Origin: Rhodoferax sp.
GTDB taxonomy: Bacteria > Pseudomonadota > Gammaproteobacteria > Burkholderiales > Burkholderiaceae_C
Assembly: GCA_008015235.1 (NCBI GenBank)
Contig: SSFF01000018.1
Location: forward strand, 1-64,000
Direction: 5' to 3'
DNA length: 64,000 nucleotides
Below are positions 793 to 14,448 of the stretch, in pieces (positions within the stretch are counted from its first letter, which is position 1; each line of letters begins with the position of its first letter). The notes below the pieces were generated by a model that was not told the origin of the DNA, did not search any database, and was given only the letters and a program-made list of their open reading frames with translations. A program made the position numbers and the translations under genes.

Positions 793-1605
793 TCAGGGAG
801 CCGGTCGCTCCGGCCCCTTGTCAAAGCCGTAGCGGGCCTGGATGCGCGTCAGGCTGCCGTCGCGCTTCATTTCCAGCAAGGTCGCGTCGTAGCGTGCAAT
901 CAGGTCGGCCATGCGCGGGTAGCTGGAGCTTTTGACAAAGGCGTTGAAGTAGGGCCGGTCCTTGATCGGGTTGGGCAGGTAGCTGATGCGCGGCAGGATG
1001 CCACGCGCGCGCGCTTCCCACAGGGTCGATTTGGTATTGAGTGGCACCAGGTCGAAGCGCTTGGCCAGCAGCTTGTCGAGCTGCACCTTGTTGGTGGCCA
1101 CCACGTCCACCGTGAGCGGTACTTCGGTGATGGCGCGCAGGAACTCATCCGAGTAGGCAAAGCCGCGCGTCACCCCTATGGGGATGCCAGCCAGGTCGCT
1201 GTAGCGGTTGAACACGAACTTGCCTTCGTCTTCCTTGCGCAGGAAGAAGTTCCAGTGGAAGCGCACATGCGACTGACCCGGATAGCGCAGGTACTCGACC
1301 CGGTCGTGGGTATAGGAGTGTGAGAACACCATGTCGTAGGGGGACGGCTTGGCTTGGGAATTGCGCACCAGCCGGGCCGGCGAGTCCACCAGTTCTATGC
1401 GGTACGGGATGTGCAGTCGCTTCATGATGTGGTCGATGATTTCCACGTCATAACCCTTGAACTGGCCATCGTTCGCCTGCCAGCGCAACGGAGCCTCCGG
1501 GATGCCGCCGATGACCAGCTCCCTTTTCTGCGCCAGTGCACTGCCGGCGACCAGCACCAGCGCCCAGGTGCTGCAGTACTTCAATGCGCGCAGGAAACTC
1601 GGCAT
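793..1605 (-). CDS. Periplasmic substrate-binding protein, family 3 (amino-acid-binding type)
   Basis: 270 residues. The start at 1605 is chosen because AAAGGGAG lies just upstream and the next ~24 residues (MPSFLRALKYC...AGSALA) form a clean signal peptide with cleavage after ALA. The mature protein starts QKRELVIGG and has the SBP_bac_3 pattern: an early FKGYDVEIIDHIMKRL segment, and a C-terminal LLEMKRDGSLTRIQARYG typical of the family. The family binds amino acids or related solutes in the periplasm, either for an ABC transporter or as a sensor partner. No ABC permease or ATPase lies next to it. It is the last gene of the minus-strand run containing the transporter-kinase, 58 bases after the FAD-protein stop, so a sensory role is possible (inference). 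The ligand cannot be assigned. Confidence 0.85.
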   Translation of the reverse strand: MPSFLRALKYCSTWALVLVAGSALAQKRELVIGGIPEAPLRWQANDGQFKGYDVEIIDHIMKRLHIPYRIELVDSPARLVRNSQAKPSPYDMVFSHSYTHDRVEYLRYPGQSHVRFHWNFFLRKEDEGKFVFNRYSDLAGIPIGVTRGFAYSDEFLRAITEVPLTVDVVATNKVQLDKLLAKRFDLVPLNTKSTLWEARARGILPRISYLPNPIKDRPYFNAFVKSSSYPRMADLIARYDATLLEMKRDGSLTRIQARYGFDKGPERPAP

Positions 1606-1663: not shown

Positions 1664-3271
1664 TCATGCCGTACCACGGCCTGCAGCGTGCCCGCTGGCA
1701 AAGGCCTCCTCAAAGATCGAGTACCCCGACCAGTCACTGTGGGCGAAAGTCAGGCGCTTTGTTTTTGGTAGCGTACTGTCTTTGTTCCATGCGGGCTGCA
1801 GCCCCATTTGGCTTGCAAACCCGGGCGCCGGGCAAGCCATGGCGTGGCCGTAGCGGGTGATGTCGAGACGGCGCAGCTTGGATGGCAGGTCAGGATGGGC
1901 CTGCGTCAGCTCGGCCAGCACGGTGTCGCGCCAGTGCTCCCACGGTGCTTGCAGCAGCTGTGCGCGCGCCTGCTGGGCGACTTGGTGCGGGGGGATGCCA
2001 TTGGCGTCGGACATGAGCGTGCGGTAGTGGGTCAGCACGGTGGCGCCGGGTACGCTGTGCAGCTGCTGGTGCATGGCGTCCACATAGCCCAGTCCAGCAG
2101 TGCCGTAGAGCACATTGTCCCAGCTGGGCGCGGCACCGGCACGGTCGCGCAAGGCGGCATCGAGCTGCAGGTTGGCTACCAGCCAGGGGGCGTGCACCAC
2201 GGCGGCTGCCGCATGCCGCAGGAAATCGGGCGGCGCTTCCATCACGCGCAGGGCCACATGCAGGGGGAGCGCCACGATGGCGTGCTGGCCCTGCCAGCGT
2301 TCGAATTGCTGGGCATGGCTGTCCCACGCATCCACGGTGACGCCGTGGCGCTGTTCGACGACACGCAGCACCACCCGGCCCGTCCGTAGGCGACCGCCCA
2401 CGGGTGCGGCCAGACGCTGCGTGAGCCAGGCATTGCCTTCAGGCCAGGTCAGCACGGCCTCGCGCTCGCCCCCTTCCGTGCCCGGCGCCGAGAAGCCGTG
2501 GCGGCTGGCGAAGTAGTGCACACCGGCCCAGGCCGACACGGTGGCGAGACCGGCGCCATAGTCGTCACGGCAGCAGTAGTCCAGGTACCAGCGCAAGTGC
2601 ACATCGGTGAGACCTTGCCGGTCCAGCCATGCTTTGAAAGTGATAGCGGTCAACGCAATGTCTTCGAGGGCCAGACGGCTTTTTTTCACTGGAATGGCCC
2701 AGTGTGAGCGTTTGCGGGCCTCGGCCACCAGCCCCGCAAAGCGCCGGTACTGGGCCAGGGTGTCGGCGCCTACGCCCTGTACGGGCAGCAGGCCATCCTG
2801 CCATTGGCCGTTGAACAGCAGCCGTTCTTGCGGGCTGTGGCACAGGTGGCGTTCGTCGTACACCCAGCGTCCGGCCACACGGCTGCGCAGGCCCAGTTCT
2901 TCGAGCAGGTCCTGCACTTCGGGGGCATCGTCACCGGGCAGGGGCAGGTAGTGCGCACCCAGGGGGTGGGCCATGCCGCCCAGCACACCGGCGCGGGCAT
3001 TGCCACCGGCGTTGTCTTCCAGTTCCAGCACGGCAAAGTCCTCGTGGCCGCGCTGGCGCAAGGCCCGTGCTGCGGCCAGGCCCGTGACACCGCCACCCAG
3101 GATGAGTGTGTGGACGGTGCGCGTGCGCGCCGGAGCGCCGGTGGGCACCGGTTCCCGCAGCCGGTGGCCGCGTTCGGGTTGCGTGCCGCTGAAGCCGCCT
3201 TCCAGCGCCGGTGGCGGCTGGCAGCCCCACAGTGGCAAGGCAGCCGAGGCCAGCAGCGTGCGCCGCCTCAT
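1664..3271 (-). CDS. FAD-dependent amine-oxidase-like protein, exported or lipid-anchored
   Basis: 535 residues. The N-terminus [20 protein letters not shown] is a signal sequence with Arg-rich start and a Cys in a lipobox-like position, so export (possibly by Tat) and lipid anchoring are likely. A dinucleotide-binding motif follows at ~55-85 ([16 protein letters not shown] ... [12 protein letters not shown]). The C-terminus ([19 protein letters not shown]) is the FAD-contacting end of the flavin amine oxidase/protoporphyrinogen oxidase fold. The substrate is unknown; amines or polyamines are possible given the aminopropyltransferase-like gene upstream in the same run, but that is inference. 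The start codon overlaps the stop of the upstream kinase as ATGA (3268-3271), indicating translational coupling. Confidence 0.8.
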
Positions 3272-6200
3272 GCTGGGTGTTGCGCCAGCAGTGATTGCAG
3301 GGACTGTGCAGCGCTTTCGAAGTCAAATGCGCCCACCGCACGGCGCAGGGGCTCCAGGCTGGCGGCTGCGGGCGAGCCAGTGCACGCGGCCAGCAGGGCC
3401 GCCGTGGCCTCTTCCGCTTCGGCGTCACCACTTTGCAGTTGCGCCAGCAGGCTCACGGCCAGGGCGTGTGCGGACGCAGTGGGCCAGAAGGTGCCAGTCG
3501 GCAGCGGGGCCTCGGTTACGACAGCGTTGCCAGCGGGGCCTGCTGCCTGCAAAACCTGTTGCAAGGCGGCAATCAGACCGGCAAGTGGGGCCTCCACCTG
3601 TTCTTTCTGCATTTGCAGCACCACCGGAATGGCTGCGGTTCTGCAGGCCTGTTCCAGATCGGTGGCCAGCCTGGCCAGCGCGTGGGCGCCAATGCTGGCG
3701 GCCTGTCCTTTGAGGGTGTGGGCCAGGCGTGCCGGCAATTGGGTGTCATTGCCATCGAGGGCGGCTTCGAACGCTTGTCCGAATGACGCGAAGGCTTCGA
3801 CAAACCGATGCAGTTGGCGTTCATACAGTTGCGGATCGCCTGCGGTGGTCAAGAGACCGGCGCGGGTGTCCAAGCCGGGAATCGCTGCCAATTGCGGTCG
3901 CACCCTGGCTGCCGGTGCGACCTGCACGGCTGCCACGGCGGCTGGAACACCGGATTCGACCGCGCGTTGCGGATGCGGTGCAATCCAACGCGCCAGGGTG
4001 GCGAACAACTGGCCCACGTTCAGTGGTTTGGCTATATGGTCTACCATGCCAGCGGCTTGGGCCCGCTCCCGGTCGGCTGCCATCACATCCGCCGTCATGG
4101 CGATGATGGGCAGGTCGGCACACCGCGGCAACTGGCGGATGGCGTGCGTGGCCTGGTACCCATCCATGACCGGCATCTGGCCATCCATCAGCACCGCATC
4201 GAACACGGCGTCACTGCGCAGGCGCTCCAGTGCCTGCAATCCGTCTTCGACCACCTCGACCCGCAACCCCGCGTTCTGCAGCAACTCCACGGCCAACTCG
4301 CGATTCATGGCGTTGTCTTCTGCCAGCAGGATACGTGCCCCGCGAATCCGTGCGATGTCGGCCTGCATCTGTTCGGATACCTGACCAATGCGCAGCTTCG
4401 ATTCCAGCACGTCACCGCCACCCGCCAATTGCTGCAGCGTGCGCTCCAGCACCAGCAGGGTCATCGGCTTCGTCAGCACCGTGCGCACAGTGGCTGCGAG
4501 TGCAGGCGGAACCTGCGCCATGTGATCCATGCCATAGGCTGTGACCAGAACCACCGGCGGGGTGGCATCGCCCCAACGATCGCGCATGGCGGTCGCGCAC
4601 TGCAACCCGTCCAGGCCCGGCATCTGCAAGTCCATGAACACCACACTGTAAGCTTGTCGATGCTCCATTGCAGCCTCCATCAACTGCATGGCCTGGGCGG
4701 CATCCACCGCCACGTCCGGGATCAGCGCCAGTTCCGAGAGCAGAGCACTGTGTACTTCACGCGCATTGCGGTTGTCGTCCACAACCAGGGCTCGCCAGCC
4801 TTCGAAACTGTGGATCGTGGAATGGATGCGCTCCTGTTGCGCCTGCAGCTTGAATGGCAATGTGAAATGGAACGTCGATCCTTTGCCCGGTGCGGAACGC
4901 ACCCCGATCTGCCCGCCCATGAGTTCCACCAACTCCTTCGATATGGCCAGCCCCAATCCCGTGCCACCGTATTTCCGTGTCGTCGAGGCGTCGGCCTGAC
5001 TGAACGACTGGAACAGGCGCGACTGCTGTTCGGGTGTCATGCCGATGCCGGTGTCGCGCACTTCAAACTGCAACGTTGCCTGGCCATCACGCTGCGACTC
5101 CAGACGCACCACCACCACCACTTCACCGTTCTCGGTGAACTTGACCGCGTTGTTGCCCAGGTTGATGAGCACCTGGCCCAGGCGTAGCGGGTCACCGACC
5201 AGGGCCTGGGGTACATCGGCATGCACTTCGAACAGCAATTCCAGGCCCTTGTCCTGGGCCTTCAGTCCCACCAGATTGGCCAGGTTGTCGAGCACGTCTT
5301 CCAGGTAGAAGTCGGTGTGCTCGACCGTGAGCTTGCCGGCCTCGATCTTCGAGAAATCGAGAATGTCGTTGATGATGCCCAGCAGGTTCTCGGCCGAACG
5401 GTGCACCTTCTCAACGTAGTTGCGCTGGCGTGACGTCAGCTCGGTCTGCAAGGCCAGGTAGGACATGCCGATGATGGAGTTCATGGGTGTGCGGATTTCA
5501 TGGCTCATGTTGGCCAGGAAGTCGCTCTTGGCGCGTGTGGCGTCTTCGGCGCGCTCCTTGGCAGTGCGCAGCTCGCCTTCGGCAAGGTCACGGCTTTCGC
5601 CCACCAGCACGATCCACCAGGTGGTCAGGCTCGACAGCAAGGCCAGCCCCAGGAACGCACGCAGCACAAAGCTGCGCACCAGCTCGGCGGCTTCGGGGGT
5701 AAATACCTTGTCGGCCACAGGTTGCGTCGCCCACAGCGCCAGTGCCAACGTGATCAGCATGGCGCTCCAGATCAGCAGGAAGTTGGCCACCCGCAGTGTG
5801 GTGCGCGTTGTCAGGGGGCGCGGCCACAGCCGGTTGAGCAGTCGGTGTACCAGGTCGCGGTAGTGGTCGACAGGCCCTTTGATGGTGGGCTTGCAGCTGT
5901 CGTGGCAGGCAGATTCGAGGGTGCAGCACAGTGAGCAGATGGCACCACCATGGTGGGTGCAATGGGCCGAGTCGGCGACCTCGTAGTCCTGCCCGCACAC
6001 GGTGCAGGTCACCAAGGTCTTCACAGGGACGGGGAAGTGGCTTTGGCGCGCGATGTAGTAGCGGCCCTGGGTCCACCAGGCCATGAAAGGGGACAGCACA
6101 AAGGCCACCACTGCGGCAATGAGCCAGGAGTAGGCCTGGGCCATTTCACCCCAGAGTCCGGCAAAGGCCACCGTCGCTGCAATCGATCCTGCCACCATGC

Positions 6201-7494
6201 TGACCACACCCACGGGGTTGACGTTGTAGAGGTGGGCCCGCTTGAATTCGACAATGGGTGGGCTCAGCCCCAGCGGCTTGTTGACCGCCAGGTCGGCCAC
6301 CACGGCGCAGATCCAGGCCACCGCAATGTTGGAATACATGCCCAGCACGCTGTTCATGGCCTCGAACAGGTCCATCTCCATGAGCAGCAGGGCAATGCCG
6401 CAGTTGAACACCAGCCAGACCACGCGCCCAGGGTGGGAGTGCGTGAGCCGTGAGAAGAAGTTCGACCAGGCCAGCGAGCCGGCGTAAGCGTTGGTGACGT
6501 TGACCTTGAGCTCGGACACGATCACCAGCAAGGCACTGAGCAGCAGGGCCGTATCGGGGTTGGCAATGGCGAACCGGTAGGCGTGGTCGAATATCTGGAT
6601 CGGCTCCTTGGCGTCGGCAATCGCCAGGCCGGCCACCACGGCCGATGCCGCCAACAGGGCGCCGCCGAGCTGCTTGATGAAGGCAATAAGAATCCAGCCC
6701 GGCCCGCCCGTGAACATGTTGAACCACCAGCTGGCACGGTTGTGCTTGCCGCGCTCCGGCATGAAACGCAGGTAGTCGACCTGTTCACCGATCTGCGCGA
6801 TCAGTGAAAAGGAAATGCCCGCGGCAATGCCGAAATGCATCCAGTCGAACTCGCGGCTTTTCGAGACATCGCCGCTGAAATTAACCAGGGCCTGCAAGGC
6901 GTCAGGCTGGCGGGTGAACACGAAGTAGAACGGAGCCACCAGCAGGCCGATCCATATCACCTGGGTCCACTGGTGAAAGCGGTTGATGGCCGTGACGCCA
7001 TAGAACACGATGGGAATGACCACCACGGTGCACAGGATGTAGCCCAGCCACAGCGGTATGCCGAAGCACAGCTTGACCGCCTGGGCCATGATGGCGGTTT
7101 CCAGCGCCAGGAAGATGAAGGTGAACGATGCGTAGATCAGCGAGGTGAAGGTCGAACCCACGTAACCGAAGCCGCTGGCCCGGGTCAGCAGGTCCATGTC
7201 GATGCTGTGCTTGGCCGAGTAATGGCAGATCGGCCAGCCCACCGCCAGGATGATGACTGCCGAAAACACCAGCGCCCAGATCGCATTCTGGAAACCAAAG
7301 TCGAGCAGCAGCAGCGCACCGATGGCCTCGTAGGACAGGGCGGAGTTGGTGCCGATCATGGTGGCGCCGATGACGGCGGGAGACCATTTGCGAAAGCTGG
7401 CCGGGGAGTAGCGCAGCGCGTAGTCCTCGATCGACTCGGTCGCCACCCATTTGTTGTACTGGCGCCTTTGCGCGTCGACGGTCTGTGCATCCAT
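3268..7494 (-). CDS. NCS1-type permease fused to hybrid histidine kinase (two receivers and Hpt)
   Basis: 1408 residues from ATG at 7494, the first codon giving [16 protein letters not shown]. Residues ~1-490 are a polytopic membrane domain resembling nucleobase:cation symporter-1 (cytosine/purine/hydantoin permease): [37 protein letters not shown] and repeated hydrophobic segments. Residues ~495-535 are Cys/His-rich (CTVCG, CTHHGG, CSLCC, CHDSC). Two further membrane segments (~570-640) precede the kinase: HisKA with SHEIRTPM (His665), HATPase with [19 protein letters not shown] and [10 protein letters not shown]. Then come receiver 1 ([18 protein letters not shown]), receiver 2 ([19 protein letters not shown]) and an Hpt domain (AHTLKGQA, His1259). 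The gene lies 14 bases after the HD-GYP regulator stop and overlaps the FAD gene, so the three form an operon. The permease part may transport, or only sense, its ligand. Confidence 0.92.
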
Positions 7495-7508
7495 GCTTGC
7501 GGGCTCCC

Positions 7509-8666
7509 TCAGTTTTTCAGTCGGTCCATCTGTGCGGCTTTGGCGTGCAGTTCGGCATCGCTGTCGGCGTAGCGTTGCGCGACGGCCCGGAACTCTTCCT
7601 GCACGTCCAGGAAGGCATCGACCAGGTCCGGATCGAAATGCGTGCCACGGCCCTCGCGGATGATGTCCACCGCCTTCTCGTGGGGCATGCCGTCCTTGTA
7701 GACCCTGCGGCTGATCAGCGCGTCGTAGACATCGGCCACGGCCATCAGGCGCGCCGAGATCGGAATGGCATCCCCGGACAGGCCTTCGGGGTAGCCCGAG
7801 CCGTCCCACTTCTCCTGGTGGTAGAGCGCAATGTCCTTGGCGTGCCGCAGAAAGTCCACCTCTTTGCCCAGCTGCTTTTCGGCGGCGGCAATGGCGTCGC
7901 GTCCCAGTGTGGTGTGGGTTTTCATGACTTCGAACTCTTCCGGAGTGAAGCGTCCGGGCTTGAGCAGGATGCGGTCCGGGATGCCCACCTTGCCGATGTC
8001 GTGCAACGGGGCCGACTTGAACAGCAATGCGATGGTGGCGTCGTCGAGAAAGTAGCCGAAGCGCGGATGCTCCTGCACCTGGCGTGCCAGCACCCGCACA
8101 TAGTGCTGGGTACGGCGAATGTGGTTGCCGGTGTCGCTGTCGCGGGTTTCGGCCAGGGAGGCCATGGCCAGAATGGTCACGTCCTGCAAGGCCCCGAGCT
8201 CGACCGTGCGGCTGGCCACCTCGTTCTCGAGAAAGCTGGCCTGGTCGCGCAGGAAGTCCGCGGCAGCCTTGTTCTCCAACTGGGTGCGCACCCGCGCCAG
8301 CACCACGGCGGGGGTGATGGGCTTGGTGATGTAGTCGGCTGCGCCGAGCTCCAGGCCCACGGTTTCGTCTTCGGTGGAACTCATGGCGGTCAGGAACACC
8401 ACCGGGATGTGCCGCGTGGCCACTTCGGCCCGCAACTGCTTGATGACGTCATAGCCCGACATGCCTGGCATCATGATGTCCAGCAGGATCAGGTCCGGCA
8501 TGGGCGCCATGCGCGCCAGCTCCAGCGCCTTTTCGCCGCCGTTGGCGACCTTGACGCGGTAGCGCCCCTTGAGCAGGGAGGTCATGAGCGAGAGGTTGGC
8601 GGGGGTATCGTCGACCACCAGGATGGTGGGTTTCTGGGTGAAGTCCAGGGGCTGTGAATCTGTCAT
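7509..8666 (-). CDS. Response regulator with HD-GYP phosphodiesterase domain (RpfG type)
   Basis: 385 residues. The receiver domain (residues ~14-130) has the acidic pair in LVVDDT, phospho-acceptor Asp63 in LLDIMMPG and Lys in ITKPIT. A helical linker is followed by an HD-GYP domain (~165-365) with catalytic HD at 222-223 (LHDIGK), downstream His residues, and the signature [10 protein letters not shown]. Such proteins hydrolyse c-di-GMP in the cytoplasm, controlled by phosphorylation. It is the first gene of the three-gene kinase operon and the obvious partner of the permease-kinase fusion. The 70-base gap upstream to the aminopropyltransferase-like gene has no visible terminator, so readthrough from the polyamine cluster is possible. 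Confidence 0.93.
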
Positions 8667-8736
8667 GGCGCAGCACTATGCGGATGGCAACGGTCTTTGG
8701 CAATAGGGGCTTGCAAACCGGTGCGGGTATGCCTGC

Positions 8737-10305
8737 TCATCGGGCCACCGCCACCCGCCCCCACTCCTGTTCGTAGGTCTGCACCAGCACCTGGTTGGAC
8801 AGGCGGTTGACTTCGGCGCTCACGCGCGCCATGTCGGGAGGGAAGTTCAGCAGCGACGGCAGGGACAGTGGGGTGAGAAACCGCAGGCCCTCGGGCAGCT
8901 GTTCCGGTGCCGACCAGGGCCGGCGGCTGGCGATGACAAAGCCCCATTCGCCAAAGCTGGGCACATGGGCGTGGTAGGGCGTGGTCCGCAGCCCTGCGGC
9001 TTCGATGGTCTGCACCACGGTCCAGAAACTCTGGCGCGCCACCAGCGGGCTGGTGGTCTGGACGACGGCGAAGCCGCTGGCGCTGAGGTGCTTGTCCAGC
9101 AGGGCGTAGAACGACTGCGTGTAGAGCTTGCCGATGGCAAAATTGGTCGGGTCCGGGAAGTCCACCACCACCACGTCGAAGGTTTCGGTGCTCTGCTCCA
9201 ACCAGCCGAAGGCATCGGCATTGACGACCCGCACCCGCGGGTCGGAAAGGGCCTGGTCGTTGAGTGCGGTAAGCATGGGCTGCTGGGTGAAGAGCTGCGT
9301 CATGACCGGGTCCAGGTCCACCAGCGTGACGCTGTCCAATGCTGGGTATTTCAGTATCTCGCGTACCGCCATGCCGTCACCCCCGCCCAGCACCAGCACC
9401 TTTTTGGCGCCTTGGGCGTGGGGAGCGAAGGCGGCCATGGCCGGGTGCACCAGGGCTTCGTGGTAACGGTACTCGTCGCGCTGGGCAAACTGCAGGTTGC
9501 CATTGAGAAACAGGCGGTAGCCCACGCGTCCCTCGCCCGGCGCATGGGTGAGGACGATGCGCTGGTACGGGCTGGTGCTGGCCAACACCACGCGGTCCTG
9601 GTAGAGCTTGTCTTCGGCCCAGGTGGTCAGGTGGTCGGCCCCGGCCATGCACGCCAGAAGCACCGCAATGACCGCTGCGCACGCCATGGCATGGGCCGGC
9701 AGGCGCCGCAGCTCCTGGCGGAAAAGCCACAGCGCCCACACGGCCACGGCGGCATTGAGCAGGCCGAAGAACAGCCCGGTGCGCACCAGACCCATCTGCG
9801 GCACGAAGAACAGCGGGAACGCCAGCGAAACCGCCAGCGCCCCCAGGTAGTCGAAGGTCAGTACCTGCGAGACCAGGTCCTTGAGTGCCACGTTCCTTTT
9901 CAGGATGCGCATGACCAGCGGAATTTCCAGCCCCACCAGCATGCCCACCAGCAGCACCAGCCCGTACAGCAGGGTACGGAAGGAGCCGGGGACCATGGCA
10001 TTGGCCACAAAGAGCAGGGCTGGAAGCAGTCCACCGACCAGGGCCACCAGCAATTCGACGCGCAGGAAATGGCCCGGCAGTTGGCGCTCAAAGAAGCGTG
10101 ACAGCCAGGAGCCCACACCCATGGCGAACAGGTAGGTGCCGATGACCGTGGAAAACTGCAGCACCGAGTCGCCCAGCAGGTAGGACGCCAGGGCACCGGC
10201 CGCCAGTTCGTAGACCAGCCCGCAGGCCGCCACCACGAATACGCTGGCCAGCAGTGCTACATCCAGCGGCGCGGGCGCCGCCTTGGAGGTATTCGCCGGA
10301 CTCAA
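8737..10305 (-). CDS. Membrane-embedded spermidine-synthase-like aminopropyltransferase
   Basis: 522 residues from the proposed TTG start at 10305, which overlaps the DUF350 stop as TTGA; no ATG gives the expected N-terminus. Residues ~10-215 contain about six to seven membrane segments (VALLASVFVVAACGLVYELA, TVIGTYLFAMGVGSWLS). Residues ~235-500 are a spermidine synthase fold: RDEYRYHEALVHPAM, the nucleotide motif VLVLGGGDGMAVREIL, the acidic VDLDPVM and the active-site-like VVVDFPDPTNFAIGKLYT. The family transfers aminopropyl groups from decarboxylated AdoMet, and membrane-fused versions occur beside DUF350 genes. Whether this one makes a soluble polyamine or modifies something at the membrane is not known. 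No AdoMet decarboxylase gene is present in the window. Confidence 0.88.
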   Translation of the reverse strand: MSPANTSKAAPAPLDVALLASVFVVAACGLVYELAAGALASYLLGDSVLQFSTVIGTYLFAMGVGSWLSRFFERQLPGHFLRVELLVALVGGLLPALLFVANAMVPGSFRTLLYGLVLLVGMLVGLEIPLVMRILKRNVALKDLVSQVLTFDYLGALAVSLAFPLFFVPQMGLVRTGLFFGLLNAAVAVWALWLFRQELRRLPAHAMACAAVIAVLLACMAGADHLTTWAEDKLYQDRVVLASTSPYQRIVLTHAPGEGRVGYRLFLNGNLQFAQRDEYRYHEALVHPAMAAFAPHAQGAKKVLVLGGGDGMAVREILKYPALDSVTLVDLDPVMTQLFTQQPMLTALNDQALSDPRVRVVNADAFGWLEQSTETFDVVVVDFPDPTNFAIGKLYTQSFYALLDKHLSASGFAVVQTTSPLVARQSFWTVVQTIEAAGLRTTPYHAHVPSFGEWGFVIASRRPWSAPEQLPEGLRFLTPLSLPSLLNFPPDMARVSAEVNRLSNQVLVQTYEQEWGRVAVAR

Positions 10306-10514
10306 TGGATCGCGGCAGCGACGATGATGCAAATGCCCAGCGACATGGCCGCCACGACCATCCCCAGGGCCTTGTTCTGCTTCTCGACGATTTCTTCCCA
10401 CAGGTTGTAGGGGGTGAGCTTGTCGATCACGATGAAGCTCAGCCAGAAAACCGCCACGCCCAGCAGGGCGTAGACCACCGAGGCCAGCAAGGCTCCGTTA
10501 CGCAACCATTCCAT
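10302..10514 (-). CDS. DUF350 family small membrane protein
   Basis: 70 residues. Two in-frame ATGs lie close together; the one at 10514 (MEWLRNGALL) is preferred because AAGGAG sits 7 bases upstream, while the codon at 10520 leaves only one base after it. Two membrane helices (residues ~6-28 and ~48-68) are separated by a polar loop with TPYNLWEEIVEKQNKALG, the conserved part of DUF350. Function is unknown; the family recurs beside polyamine synthesis genes, DUF4178 and SPFH/PspA proteins in envelope-stress-like clusters (E. coli YjfL is a relative). Its stop overlaps the start of the aminopropyltransferase-like gene, so the two are probably translated together. Confidence 0.85.
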   Translation of the reverse strand: MEWLRNGALLASVVYALLGVAVFWLSFIVIDKLTPYNLWEEIVEKQNKALGMVVAAMSLGICIIVAAAIH

Positions 10515-10541
10515 ATGCATGCTCCTTGTTGAAATGCCGAT

Positions 10542-12104
10542 TCATTTGTGTCCGCCACCGCCGGAGTAGCCGCCGAACGAGCCGCCCGAGCTGCGGTAGC
10601 TGCTGCTGGTGCAGTTTTCCACCTGCGGGTCGCAGCTGGAACATTGGCTCACGGCCAGAACCACCAGCGCAAACACCACGAAGATCAGGAATTCGGGCTT
10701 GGAGAAAGGACTCTGGTTGGGCACAAAAGGGCCAACGTCGCTGCGTGCCAGCAGTTCCTTCTTGTCTTCCAGCTTGAATGCCTTGGCGACCAGGGCACTG
10801 TCGATCTGGGCCCCCACCGACCAGGTGAGTTCCTGTGGGGTCTGTTCCAGCGAGAGCAGGTTCTTGCCGGACGCGTAATCGCGGTTCAGGGTCTTCTGCC
10901 CGCGCGCCACCTGCCAGTAAAACTCGCCGACCACGTAGTTGGTTTCGGCGTTGTAGCTTTCCTTGAGGGTGTAGCGCGTGCCCAGGTAGGTGGCCGACTG
11001 CAGGTTCTCAGACACCACCGGGGTGCCTGTGGCCGGCTTGACCATGCTCCAGCCTTCGGTGGAGTCCACCAGAAAGCTGAAACCCCGCTTGGCATTGAAC
11101 AACAGGTACTCGTCCCAGCCGAAGTGCTCGTCGGGGTCGCTGGGCTCAAAGCCCATGCGGTGCTGGTAGCCCACCACCTGCCATGCTACGCCTTGAAGTT
11201 GGCCAGTGCTCCCTAGCGGAATCAAGGGTTGTATCGGTTCGTCCTGCTCTGCATGGCGCAGCTCCCCACCGATGCCATTGCTCAGGTCGATGATGCTGTG
11301 GCAGCTGGCGCAGGTCATGCTCTTGCTTTGCGCCAGCTGCACTGTCAGGCTAGCGCCGCAGTTGGGGCAGGCAAACTGGCGGCCTTTCTCTTCCTTGGTC
11401 TGTTCGCTGCGCAGGCCGGTGAGTGCCAGGTCGTCGAGTAAGACCGGCACGCCGCGTGTGACCGTGGGCGGCGTGCTGCCGTAGTCCAGCGACAGCACTT
11501 CCTGGGCTTCGGGTGTACCTTGACCGATGGCGCTACCGATCTGGGAACCGGCCGCAGCTCCTTGGCTGCGCAGTTCCACCATGGCGTGCTGCACGCCCAA
11601 TGCCGGCAGGCGCGGCAACTCGCCCTGCGCCGCGATCAGCGCCACGGTCTGGTGGCTGGTGACGGTATAGGTCTTGCCGTTGATGGCGGTGCTGGCCCCG
11701 ACGCGAAAGCGCCCGGCTTCGGGCAGGGCTTGCTGCGTGGCCTGGGCCTGCACCCAGACGTAGGCGCCGTTGTCTTCGCTCAGGAACGCGCTGGATCCGT
11801 CGTCGTCCATCAGCGCATGCCACTCGGTCCAGCTGCCTTCGGGGTACTTGTACTGCAGCCTCCCCACCAGCGTGAAGGCACGGCCCTGGTACTTGCCGCT
11901 GGCCGTCAGCTGCAGCGGGCTGTGGTCGTCGAAGAGCTCGGCCATCTTGCCGATGCGCTTCAGGACCTCGCCTTCGCGCACCACGGTGCTGCTGCAGTAG
12001 GCGCAGACGGCGTGGGTGGACTGGGCGCTGCGGAACTCGACCGGGGCGCCGCAGCCGGGGCAGGGTGCGCGGTAGGTGCGTTGGTTTTGTGGTGCCGTTG
12101 CCAT
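10542..12104 (-). CDS. DUF4178 protein with two zinc-ribbon-like motifs and C-terminal membrane helix
   Basis: 520 residues from ATG at 12104 (MATAPQNQRTYRAPCPGCG). Upstream in-frame codons run into repeat-rich DNA and are disregarded. Two Cys4 ribbons are visible, CPGCG...CAYCSS near the start and CPNCGASL...CASCHS near residue ~235. Each precedes a DUF4178-like beta-rich unit (YKYPEGSWTEWHALMDDDG; GFEPSDPDEHFGWDEYLLF), so the protein looks internally duplicated. Near the C-terminus are one membrane helix (FLIFVVFALVVLAVS) and a Ser/Gly-rich tail ending GGYSGGGGHK. Function is not established; it lies 27 bases upstream of DUF350 and probably forms part of the same membrane-associated complex (inference). 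Confidence 0.82.
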   Translation of the reverse strand: MATAPQNQRTYRAPCPGCGAPVEFRSAQSTHAVCAYCSSTVVREGEVLKRIGKMAELFDDHSPLQLTASGKYQGRAFTLVGRLQYKYPEGSWTEWHALMDDDGSSAFLSEDNGAYVWVQAQATQQALPEAGRFRVGASTAINGKTYTVTSHQTVALIAAQGELPRLPALGVQHAMVELRSQGAAAGSQIGSAIGQGTPEAQEVLSLDYGSTPPTVTRGVPVLLDDLALTGLRSEQTKEEKGRQFACPNCGASLTVQLAQSKSMTCASCHSIIDLSNGIGGELRHAEQDEPIQPLIPLGSTGQLQGVAWQVVGYQHRMGFEPSDPDEHFGWDEYLLFNAKRGFSFLVDSTEGWSMVKPATGTPVVSENLQSATYLGTRYTLKESYNAETNYVVGEFYWQVARGQKTLNRDYASGKNLLSLEQTPQELTWSVGAQIDSALVAKAFKLEDKKELLARSDVGPFVPNQSPFSKPEFLIFVVFALVVLAVSQCSSCDPQVENCTSSSYRSSGGSFGGYSGGGGHK

Positions 12105-12207
12105 GTCTATTGGCCTTCGGTCGCTGGGGGGAGCCATGGGGCAGTGCCGGGGTTCAGAGGCAATGCTGGGTTTTGTTTTTTCCTCACTCCACCTCCATAC
12201 CCCCCCG

Positions 12208-12262
12208 CCCCTTTCCACCCTCGCCAGGGCGGAAAGGGGTGCCGAACAGCCACATTTGGCCG
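12208..12262 (+). repeat. REP-like hairpin element, copy 1
   Basis: A 14-pair stem with one mismatch (12208-12221 against 12226-12239, loop CGCC) is followed by a 22-base tail at 12241-12262 beginning GCCGAACAGCCACATTTGG. The tail is repeated without mismatch, inverted, at 12486-12507, next to another hairpin. Confidence 0.75.
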
Positions 12263-12333
12263 TCGCGGTAAACGAAGGAAGTGCACGTGCGACGGGCGCG
12301 TCGGGGTGGTGCAGGTTGAGAGGGTGCTTGTGC

Positions 12334-12382
12334 TGCTATGAATTTGGTAGCTGTTTGCGCAACGTATACGCGGGCTAGATGG
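12334..12382 (+). repeat. Interspersed Comamonadaceae-type repeat, intergenic copy
   Basis: Reads TGCTATGAATTTGGTAGCTG, then TTTGCGCAACGTATACGCGG and GCTAGATGG. It matches the core of the copies at 21674, 27301, 40581 and (inverted) 39796, 48203 and 54939. It lies between the two inverted REP-like hairpins. Confidence 0.75.
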
Positions 12383-12410
12383 CGATTTGGCACGAAAAAT
12401 CCCCAACCCC

Positions 12411-12434
12411 AAACCAAAACCAAAACCAAAACCA
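12411..12434 (+). repeat. Short AAAACC tandem repeat
   Basis: About four units of AAAACC in tandem inside the repeat-rich gap. It is too short and too simple for a CRISPR array; it is a possible slippage site. Confidence 0.7.
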
Positions 12435-12485
12435 ATCCCCTGTCCCAACGCCAATCGGCGCGTGCACTGTCCTTGTTCGCATACG

Positions 12486-12536
12486 CGGCCAAATGTGGCT
12501 GTTCGGCTCCCTCTCGCCCGGCGGGGCGAGAGGGAG
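12486..12536 (-). repeat. REP-like hairpin element, copy 2 (inverted)
   Basis: A perfect 13-pair stem (12507-12519 against 12524-12536, loop GGCG) adjoins the inverted copy of the 22-base tail at 12486-12507. It lies about 90 bases beyond the SPFH stop on the minus strand, but no T-run follows, so it is not a classical terminator. It could still protect the 3' end of the SPFH mRNA. Confidence 0.72.
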
Positions 12537-12626
12537 GGGGGTGAGTGGGGGTTGTGAGGAAAAAAAGGACTCAAGCAATGTCTCCGAGCGACCACCAATG
12601 CCACACGAATGAACAAGCCAACAAAC

Positions 12627-13655
12627 TCAAACGAGCTTCTTCAACAACTCCGCCTTCTTTGCCGCGAACTCTTCCTCGGTCAATATCCCCTTGGCCTTCA
12701 GATCACCGAGCTTCTCCAACGTTGCCATCACTTCCTCGGGTTTGATCCCAGAAGCTGCTGCAGCCGGTGCTGCCGCAGGTTGCAAGCCAGCCGCCAGATT
12801 CTGCGCCAGGACCTGCCCCAGCGCGACACCCGCGCCCAGCCCCATCGCATCCCCGGCAATGCCACTGCCGCCCCCTGCGCCTTCGGCCATTTTCGGAATC
12901 GCCTGCGCCGTCTGGTACTGCATGAACTGGCCCATGTCCTTGCCGACCATGCCCATGCCGATCTTCTGGTCCAGCACCTTCTGCAGCTCTTCGGGCAGGG
13001 ACACGTTCTGCACCGTCATGGCCTCCAGCTTGAGGCCGATCTTCTCGAATTCGGGCGCCAGCTGGCGTTGCAAGGCCTGGGCAAAGCTCAGCTGGTTGGC
13101 CGCCAGGTCCAGGAAGGCGATGCCGCTGGAGGCAATGGCGTTGCTGATGTTCTGCAGTACCAGGCCGCGCAGCTGGCCGTCGATGTCGGCCACGGTGTAG
13201 CTTTCGCGCGTGCCCGAGATCTCGGTGTGGAACAGCTTGGGGTCGGCAATGCGGAAGGCGTAGTTGCCAAAGGCGCGCAGGCGCACGGCACCAAAGTCGG
13301 CATCGCGCACGGTGATGGGCTGTGGTGTACCCCATTTGCAGTCGAGCTGCTGGCGCGTGCTGAAGAAGTAGACATCGCTCTTGAAGGGCGACTCGAACAG
13401 CTTGTCCCAGTTCTTCAGGTAGGTCAGCACCGGCAGGGTTTGCGTGGTGAGCTTGTGGGTACCGGGGCCGAACACGTCGGCCACCTTGCCTTCGTTGACA
13501 AACACCGCCAGCTGCGACTCGCGCACCACCAGCTGAGCGCCATTCTGGATTTCCATGCCGGCCATGGGAAAACGCCAGGCCAGGGTACCGTCGCCTTCTT
13601 CCGTCCACTGGATGACGTCAATAAACTGCTTCTTGATGAAGTCCATCAGGGCCAT
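12627..13655 (-). CDS. SPFH/band-7 family protein with C-terminal SHOCT motif
   Basis: 342 residues. The start at 13655 (MALMDFIKKQFIDVIQW) has a good ribosome site (AAGGAG, 7 bases upstream). The SPFH-like core spans ~25-220: DGTLAWRFPMAGMEIQNGAQ, VRESQLAVFVNEGKVADVF, KSDVYFFSTRQQLDCKWGTP, ADFGAVRLRAFGNYAFRI. This is the YdjI-like 'virion core' subgroup, which lacks an N-terminal membrane helix. A Gly/Ala-rich linker follows, then a SHOCT-type helical hairpin at ~308-342 (MATLEKLGDLKAKGILTEEE). The subgroup may scaffold membrane or cytosolic complexes. Its association with DUF4178 and DUF350 is seen directly here; a role in envelope stress is inference. Confidence 0.85.
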   Translation of the reverse strand: MALMDFIKKQFIDVIQWTEEGDGTLAWRFPMAGMEIQNGAQLVVRESQLAVFVNEGKVADVFGPGTHKLTTQTLPVLTYLKNWDKLFESPFKSDVYFFSTRQQLDCKWGTPQPITVRDADFGAVRLRAFGNYAFRIADPKLFHTEISGTRESYTVADIDGQLRGLVLQNISNAIASSGIAFLDLAANQLSFAQALQRQLAPEFEKIGLKLEAMTVQNVSLPEELQKVLDQKIGMGMVGKDMGQFMQYQTAQAIPKMAEGAGGGSGIAGDAMGLGAGVALGQVLAQNLAAGLQPAAAPAAAASGIKPEEVMATLEKLGDLKAKGILTEEEFAAKKAELLKKLV

Positions 13656-13773
13656 GCTGTGCTCCTTGAAAAGGTGGGTCGGCGCATGATACAGACTCCT
13701 GGTGACCGTGCAGCTTGTACCATTGGCAGTTGCGCCCCTGTCGCTTCCATCAACCCCAAGTGAGTCGAGACCC

Positions 13774-14448
13774 ATGGATACCGCCGTCATCATTGGCCTT
13801 GCCGTTGCAGTTTTGTGCGCCGCCGGCGTTTATGTGGTCATGGAGTACCTCCATTTCGGTGAGCGCCAGAAAGTGGGCAACCAGCTGCTCAAGCACCAGA
13901 CCGAAGCCGCCGCCGTGCGCAAGGAGCTGGAGGGCTACACCAAGTACGCCACCTACCTGGGGGCGGCCAAAACGCACCTCGTCGACAACGCCAAGAGCCT
14001 GCAGGTCAAGGTGGTGCGCGAGTACACCTATGCCGAAACCTTCAACCGCGATGCCAAGACACTCAAGGCGCCGGTGACCATCCTGCAGCGCTACAACGTC
14101 GAGGCCCAGTTCAGCTTTGACCTCAAGGCCGGTAGCTTCGAACTGATTGCGGCCCCAACGGCGCTGGAAGTCCATATGCACGGCAAGCCCAGCCTGCAGG
14201 GCATCGCCAATGCCCGCCCCGTAGCCCACGAGATCACCAACGAAGGTGTGCTCGACAACGAACCGGTGGCGGTGAAGCAGATCCAGCAGAAGCTCATTGC
14301 CATCGCGCAGAAGCAGGCCGAAGCCATTGGCGCCGAGGATGCGACCACGGTGCTGTGCGAACGCAAGGTGGCCGATGCCCTGCGCTCCCTGCTCATCACC
14401 CAGGCCGGTGTGCGCCAGGTCCCCTACATCGCCTTCCTCTACAAGTAA
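13774..14448 (+). CDS. Membrane-anchored protein of unknown function
   Basis: 224 residues from ATG at 13774. One N-terminal helix (residues ~4-24, VIIGLAVAVLCAAGVYVVME) anchors a ~195-residue soluble domain, probably periplasmic or cytoplasm-facing. A helical stretch (KHQTEAAAVRKELEGYTKYA) is followed by beta-rich sequence (VKVVREYTYAETF, RYNVEAQFSFDLKAG) and a C-terminal helix pair. The layout loosely recalls DUF4230 proteins, but I do not recognise it with confidence. It is divergent from the SPFH gene (118-base gap) and only 3 bases upstream of the murU-like gene, so it leads a four-gene operon. Confidence 0.75.
   Translation: MDTAVIIGLAVAVLCAAGVYVVMEYLHFGERQKVGNQLLKHQTEAAAVRKELEGYTKYATYLGAAKTHLVDNAKSLQVKVVREYTYAETFNRDAKTLKAPVTILQRYNVEAQFSFDLKAGSFELIAAPTALEVHMHGKPSLQGIANARPVAHEITNEGVLDNEPVAVKQIQQKLIAIAQKQAEAIGAEDATTVLCERKVADALRSLLITQAGVRQVPYIAFLYK

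Follow-up and report, generated by a model that had tools for sequence, protein, structure and literature searches.

A divergent NCS1-type permease domain fused to a hybrid histidine kinase in Rhodoferax: a candidate diverged member of a receptor-kinase family linked to urea and amide genes

Transporter-fused kinases serve to ask how a transport fold turns into a receptor, and the gene described here poses that question for an NCS1-type permease: what would such a protein bind, and to which output would it be coupled? The gene lies on the minus strand at positions 3268-7494 of a 64,000-nucleotide stretch of Rhodoferax sp. DNA (GenBank assembly GCA_008015235.1, contig SSFF01000018.1, positions 1 to 64,000; hereafter the window). 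A previous sequence-only reading had described its product as a 1408-residue fusion of a permease-like domain with HisKA, ATPase, two receiver and Hpt domains, had assigned the permease to the nucleobase-symporter type, and had proposed purines, pyrimidines or hydantoins as ligands. Our analysis favours another class of ligand. With a probability of roughly 0.6, the protein belongs to a family of receptor kinases for urea and short amides, in which the window copy would be a diverged member with a changed ligand and a changed output, coupled to cyclic di-GMP.

The described fusion was borne out by the reading frame, the Pfam scan and a structural model. The gene is a single intact open reading frame (ORF) of 1408 amino acids (aa) plus stop; all features given for it are on the minus strand. 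HisKA (residues 655-720, window 5335-5532), HATPase_c (767-882, 4849-5196), two Response_reg stretches and Hpt (1230-1314, 3553-3807) all scored above curated cut-offs. The best receiver match spans residues 1055-1167 (3994-4332), and the limits of the other, at about residues 902-1020 (4435-4791), were set from motifs. The phosphorylation-site motifs at H665, D955, D1104 and H1259 are all intact, as in a hybrid-kinase phosphorelay. Residues 1-498 matched no Pfam family, even at E ≤ 1. An AlphaFold2 model of residues 1-638, built on an alignment of the window protein and 46 relatives (47 sequences), was of good quality, with a predicted local distance difference test (pLDDT) score of 84.0 and a predicted template modelling (pTM) score of 0.83. 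By our own count the model has helices consistent with 12 transmembrane (TM) segments of a LeuT-type fold, reaching to about residue 474; profile, fold and alignment together place the domain at about residues 20-485 (6040-7437).

Two elements between permease and kinase had been overlooked in the sequence-only reading. The first is a module of eight cysteines at residues 497-534 (5893-6006; C497, C500, C512, C520, C523, C524, C530 and C534), modelled as strand-rich at 494-526. Each cysteine is invariant in 93/93 rows of our family alignment, a set that omits L016 (a contig-end fragment of genome G038), L018 (the second piece of L014) and the weak matches L003 and L004; L015 was retained solely as an outside NCS1 protein. 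The second element is a pair of further TM helices between the module and the kinase, at about residues 563-626 (5617-5808) from the model and hydropathy; in the model the two helices span 563-588 and 600-637 and run towards the kinase. The cysteine module has no Pfam name, and a scan of the 47 members gave no convincing match. A sequence search of solved structures returned weak RING/FYVE-like zinc-finger matches for it, which hint at zinc, perhaps at two metal sites, and fall short of proof. For the N-terminal domain the same search gave no permease match, merely weak zinc-finger and unrelated ones, and comparison with PHROGs yielded nothing useful. The permease-to-kinase stretch had no Pfam match in the window protein or the 47 members, and no STAC domain was recognised there, the presence of a STAC model in the library being unconfirmed.

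A sequencing error joining two genes, which the sequence-only reading had considered, was rejected. It is very unlikely because full-length relatives from other assemblies carry the whole architecture: L019 is a 1394-aa frame with 86% identity over the first 638 residues and 67% along the whole protein, and L021 is a 1378-aa frame with an identical set of Pfam domains.

The permease domain is of the NCS1 type and too divergent for the Pfam family PF02133, as judged from profile comparison and fold search. PF02133 was unmatched by all 47 members scanned and had no match in the whole host genome, so that distant methods were needed for the assignment. Against five NCS1 proteins from other genomes hhalign gave a probability of 98.8 over 418 columns, compared with just 2.6 against 15 proteins of the sodium/solute symporter family (SSF); a control comparison of NCS1 with SSF gave 34.3. 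When the model was searched with Foldseek against solved structures, ranks 1-5 were taken by chains of CodB (5.7e-10) and Mhp1 (8.7e-10), with other LeuT-fold transporters below them. A stand-alone NCS1 protein of genome G120 bridges the gap, with 25% identity to the window domain (E 5.8e-13) and a score of 30.2 bits that passes the PF02133 cut-off. The alternative of an SSF-type domain like that of PutP or CbrA was discarded: neither the window protein nor the 47 members matched SSF (PF00474), and both hhalign and the fold search point elsewhere. The earlier assignment to NCS1 thus held.

What the family might sense is suggested by its gene neighbourhoods. Within the stretches examined by tblastn, urease, urea-transporter or formamidase genes lie beside 60 of the 93 family members. 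They accompany 1/7 members of a cyanobacterial/myxobacterial-type side group, 0/14 of a second side group that includes the window, and 59/72 of the others, the 72 being the remainder after these two groups and not a proven clade. Clustering of flanking ORFs placed a response-regulator cluster directly downstream of the kinase in 29 loci; the other recurrent neighbours tested, named by NCBIfam, were UrtA, UrtB, UrtC, UrtD, UrtE, UreC, UreG and the formamidase FmdA. Both regulators of urea-linked loci that were scanned with Pfam (L080 and L099) were of the receiver-GerE (LuxR) type. The corresponding tblastn label is unsafe at or below about 45% identity, and at 41-43% it marked HD-GYP or kinase-like partners in L019, L021 and L029.

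The association extends to whole genomes. Among 185 genomes of the class, 13 matched, the host included; the match in G120 is the stand-alone protein, which leaves 12 with a kinase-type protein. One of the 12, G038, is counted through its contig-end fragment, on a contig that also bears UreE and UreG (L112). UrtA scored over the cut-off in 11/12 genomes with the kinase and 33/173 without it (Fisher p 4.7e-7), and urease alpha in 10/12 and 36/173, respectively (Fisher p 1.8e-5), both values being uncorrected for kinship. The sole kinase genome lacking UrtA is G137, whose copies all belong to the window's side group. The host itself has a paralogue (L002/L099), 54% identical, that sits between ureA-G and urtAB. 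Amide or urea genes were found at five of the six kinase-bearing plasmid matches whose surroundings were checked (Burkholderia vietnamiensis, Acinetobacter baumannii, Klebsiella michiganensis, Sinorhizobium fredii, Azospirillum and Methylovirgula), with permease and regulator only in A. baumannii. In the annotated plasmids of B. vietnamiensis, K. michiganensis and Azospirillum the kinase adjoins a urea/amide ABC transporter and formamidase. Published gene lists probably contain kinases of the same kind, uninterpreted in the passages concerned: a 1131-aa kinase and a 308-aa receiver protein adjoining UrtA (PMC2907700, Table 4, excerpt), and a histidine kinase and regulator beside urt genes (PMC13296017, excerpt). 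Taken over most relatives, the linkage suggests a role for the family in sensing urea-like compounds.

Permeases of the same subfamily without a kinase show a similar setting. Urease, formamidase or amidase genes stood beside them in 8/12 records, three of the eight being near-alike Acinetobacter plasmids. Urease genes adjoin the kinase-free permease in Acinetobacter ursingii, A. lwoffii, A. johnsonii and K. pneumoniae, and an aliphatic amidase does so in Arthrobacter sp. U41; Moraxella (547 aa) and Tsukamurella (562 aa) permeases lie near formamidase, and in Methylovirgula the permease occurs together with a kinase, formamidase and amidase. No urea, formamide or amide gene was present in the stretch examined in the other four records (Streptomyces angustmyceticus, S. 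chartreusis, Arthrobacter NicSoilB11 and StoSoilB13), of which the unannotated S. chartreusis and StoSoilB13 stretches were checked by tblastn alone. Kinase-free members of the subfamily are thus probably urea or short-amide permeases. The labels 'cytosine permease' or 'allantoin permease' that three of them carry within urease/formamidase clusters (L204 4989-6596, L203 4959-6566 and L179 5944-7587) are probably misleading. In one A. baumannii record (L177) a kinase-free permease (7153-8727) and a permease-kinase (9001-12390) are divergently arranged and followed by a LuxR-type regulator match, so that a sensor adjoins a transporter of its own subfamily.

In the tree the 11 kinase-free permeases group together, apart from the 97 kinase forms, with a support of 99. 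The two sets differ consistently at 23 positions, four of which cluster in TM1 (51, 52, 55 and 56): kinase-free permeases have Y52/D55/F56 (F56 in 10/11), sensors F52/L55/E56. These TM1 differences may be a signature of the change from permease to sensor.

To relate the domain to known substrate sites we mapped it via L113 onto Mhp1 with hhalign; the Mhp1-anchored mapping replaced a by-eye alignment of TM8 that had set K330 on CodB T278, and the residue-level reading is our own. In Mhp1, A309, S312 and T313 are presumably the sodium ligands. In the resulting alignment F128 falls at the TM3 tryptophan position, E132 at Mhp1 Q121 and L231 at the TM6 aromatic position; V333 and T334 correspond to the CodB sodium-site threonines T278 and T279, and K330 to CodB N275 (CodB site residues from an excerpt of PMC9379551). 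At position 231, where CodB and Mhp1 have the ring-stacking aromatic of TM6, 93/93 rows carry Leu or Met. The TM3 position is F128 in the window protein and F or L in the other rows, so the two aromatics of a ring sandwich are not both present. At the Na2 site one of two TM8 hydroxyls is kept (T334), every row having V, M, L or I at position 333, and the alignment places a lysine at 330. Together with E56, a core of polar and charged residues is conserved: Q234, E237, Q238, R243, K330, N332, T334 and N335 are invariant in 108 rows and E132 varies once, and these core residues are common to kinase-free and kinase forms. As read from the alignment, a pocket rich in acids and amides and devoid of the TM6 stacking aromatic would be better suited to a small polar ligand than to a nucleobase.

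We propose that a permease of this divergent NCS1 subfamily, fused through the eight-cysteine module and two helices to a histidine kinase, would act as a receptor and perhaps also as a transporter. Ligand binding would shift the state of the permease domain, move helices 13-14 and thereby set autophosphorylation of H665. In most relatives, urea or short-amide sensing would control ure, urt and fmd genes, often via a LuxR-type regulator. In the window the presumed partner is a 385-aa protein with a receiver and an HD-GYP-type domain by Pfam (7509-8666, minus strand), whose stop lies 14 bases before the kinase start; phosphate could pass by D955/D1104 and H1259 to its receiver and change cyclic di-GMP. 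An HD-GYP regulator likewise adjoins the kinase in L019 and L021.

Whether solute is also moved bears on the mechanism. A true transceptor, in which import of the solute and its transport cycle drive the kinase, is among the mechanisms discussed for CbrA, for which histidine transport has been reported (PMC13022988, excerpt). The complete 12-TM core and the retained charges of E56, E132 and K330 would allow it here, but the loss of a hydroxyl at Na2 position 333 in all rows, the lysine at 330 and the TM1 differences from kinase-free forms argue against it. Many clusters, moreover, already encode UrtABCDE or a separate permease, and the ammonium sensor kinase Ks-Amt5 binds its ion without efficient translocation (PMC5764959, excerpt). 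We therefore regard coupled transport as somewhat unlikely.

The receptor reading does not assign the same ligand to every member. The window gene clusters with L019, L020 and L021 (support 100), within the 14-row set without urea genes. M46, A52, Y55, L129, A271, I301, F302, E328 and V331, at positions that are otherwise nearly constant, occur in 4/4 members of this clade and, at these positions, in 0/93 other kinase forms; relative to the common residues the changes include F52A, L55Y, F129L and Q328E. Nine other clades of 3 to 7 members, taken as a control, showed 0-2 such fixed positions. Six of the nine clade-specific positions lie in TM1, TM3 or TM8, against a background of 60/188 near-constant positions in TM1/3/6/8, the helices that form the NCS1 site, and position 52 aligns with the substrate-site residues CodB Phe33 and Mhp1 Gln42. 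The window protein would probably bind a different, related small polar solute, because these TM1, TM3 and TM8 positions near the substrate site are changed. A genome can carry a window-type copy alongside a urea-linked one, as would be expected if the two had different tasks: the host has the urea-linked paralogue, and in the L019 genome one contig bears both a partial UrtA match and a second match to the cysteine module.

Alternatively the window protein might still sense urea, with its output alone rewired to cyclic di-GMP. The unchanged core polar residues would fit, as would a host for which urea is relevant, given its urease, its Urt genes and the urea-linked paralogue. We consider this unlikely in view of the substitutions at 52, 55, 129 and 328, fixed throughout the clade and seen in none of the 93 other kinase forms, and of the L020 and L021 genomes, which have no UrtA over the cut-off and no urease alpha match.

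Several observations weigh against a urea/amide-sensing family with a diverged window copy. The pocket mapping rests on alignments of ~17% identity, not on superposed structures. Linkage does not discriminate between urea, formamide and other amides; among the members belonging to neither side group, 13, including some that lie on short contigs, have no urea gene in the stretch examined, and several side-group stretches are short (L026 4.1 kb, L028 5.1 kb, L019 7.8 kb). The genome-level p-values overstate the association because the rows counted are related. As for divergence, the window clade has a long stem, so that drift could explain some of its nine changes, and one of these, F302, is what kinase-free permeases usually carry at that position. 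The sister group keeps the F52, L55 and Q328 of urea-linked forms, and its nine genomes (eight via their loci, plus G137) contain no UrtA or urease over the cut-off; either it senses urea without using it, or positions 52, 55 and 328 are no urea markers. Finally, no HD-GYP gene was found in the stretch examined around L020.

The surroundings of the window gene differ from those of urea-linked relatives. A tblastn search with a reference set of ure, urt and fmd genes found no urea gene in the whole window. Downstream, the start of a flavin amine-oxidase-family gene (1664-3271, minus strand) overlaps the kinase stop (ATGA). The upstream neighbour of the kinase-regulator pair encodes a membrane spermidine-synthase-like protein (8737-10401, minus strand), whose gene lies near or adjoins that of the flavin oxidase in kin genomes. 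Together with genes for a DUF4178 protein (10542-12218) and an SPFH protein (12627-13793), they make up a cluster (1664-13793) that recurs whole or in part in kin. The flavin oxidase gene is present in 20/30 genomes of the host's family. In 11 of the 12 regions compared, the oxidase and spermidine-synthase-like genes are close together with no NCS1-type kinase between them; the remaining region, L168, ends too close to the oxidase gene to judge. No homologue of the kinase pair was seen between both genes in 10/11 of these kin regions, so the arrangement suggests that the pair was inserted into a cluster that already existed. In L171 (G204:C1:3411000-3428000) the slot that holds the pair in the window is occupied by a 1597-aa frame (3531-8324) in which we recognised by eye a histidine kinase and a receiver, followed after a low-complexity region by another receiver with HD-GYP motifs; the frame is either a gene fusion or the result of a frameshift.

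The pair could instead be a working part of this SPFH-DUF4178-spermidine-synthase-like-flavin oxidase operon, sensing a polyamine-related or oxidised amine product. The ATGA overlap, the position of the pair between two genes that adjoin in kin genomes and the other histidine kinase with an HD-GYP region in the equivalent slot of G204 all suit such a role; with the pair's homologue not seen in 10/11 kin regions that hold both genes, and with the kinase genes of L020 and L021 in other surroundings, we find it distinctly improbable. Purine, pyrimidine or hydantoin sensing or carriage, as in typical NCS1 proteins, is less probable still: the NCS1 fold and kinship speak for it, and the smaller A52 of the window clade would leave ring space, but the stacking aromatic of TM6 is gone throughout the family, no enzyme acting on purines, pyrimidines or hydantoins occurs among the seven window neighbour proteins scanned, and the recurrent family neighbours are urea and amide genes. 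The ligands proposed in the sequence-only reading are accordingly unsupported and probably wrong for the family, a grading that we do not extend to the window copy.

A urea/amide receptor-kinase family would have several points of contact with known systems. SLC5/STAC kinases (CbrA, CrbS and RpuS) likewise fuse a transporter-type N-terminal domain to a histidine kinase and have nutrient-utilisation genes as known targets (excerpts of PMC9100948, PMC5715377, PMC7096432 and PMC13022988); here, in contrast, the domain is of NCS1 and not SSF type, the linker consists of eight cysteines and two helices, and the linked genes concern urea and amides. Ks-Amt5 (Amt-HK) shares the principle of a transporter fold placed as receptor ahead of a kinase, with an unrelated fold and a different ligand, and is inefficient at moving the ion that it binds (PMC5764959, excerpt). 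The fold and superfamily are those of CodB, Mhp1 and MetT, the last of which illustrates that an NCS1 protein can accept a ring-free guanidine compound (excerpts of PMC9379551 and PMC13390362); unlike these, the present proteins lie below PF02133 detection, lack the TM6 aromatic, have an altered Na2 site and, in the window protein, carry a kinase. The closest kinase-free relatives found, the 'cytosine/allantoin permeases' of Klebsiella and Acinetobacter urease operons, share the core residues and differ in lacking a kinase and in their TM1 residues Y52/D55/F56.

We found no description of an NCS1-histidine kinase fusion or of a urea-sensing histidine kinase in the open-licence literature searched, and the excerpts of PMC8467165 and PMC4558063 hold nothing on an NCS1-kinase fusion. 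The earlier remark that such a sensor is little known fits that literature, but the protein itself is common. A scan of the genome collection gave at least 596 matching stretches; the best 80 of these, which were the ones used, come from Beta- and Gammaproteobacteria, Sulfurimonas, cyanobacteria and Polyangium. Of 72,556 records in the plasmid collection, 529 gave a match, and in 513 a single locus spans 80% or more of the first 638 residues, counts that pool kinase-bearing and kinase-free relatives and include some chromosome-sized records. The Moraxella kinase-free permease is matched at 60% identity or more by 19 records.

Kinase-free permeases, urea-linked sensors and a clade with an altered pocket are all available within this family, distinguished by a small number of positions, and in many Proteobacteria its members are candidates for a direct urea/amide sensor encoded next to urease and Urt genes. 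Tentatively, one might go further and see urea/short-amide NCS1 permeases as the source of a widespread receptor-kinase class, a third fold after SLC5 and Amt. Its main branch would then be a hitherto unrecognised direct urea/amide sensor for urease and urea-transport genes, and the window branch a switch of specificity in which about nine substitutions, with the core kept, would couple a new ureido or amine ligand to cyclic di-GMP.

Beyond the flavin oxidase gene, the next downstream gene in the window encodes an SBP_bac_3 solute-binding-type protein (796-1605, minus strand; start chosen by us within the frame 793-1737). At the contig edge, positions 6-779 hold part of another hybrid kinase, including a receiver, whose tail by eye resembles the C-terminal tail of the 1408-aa protein.

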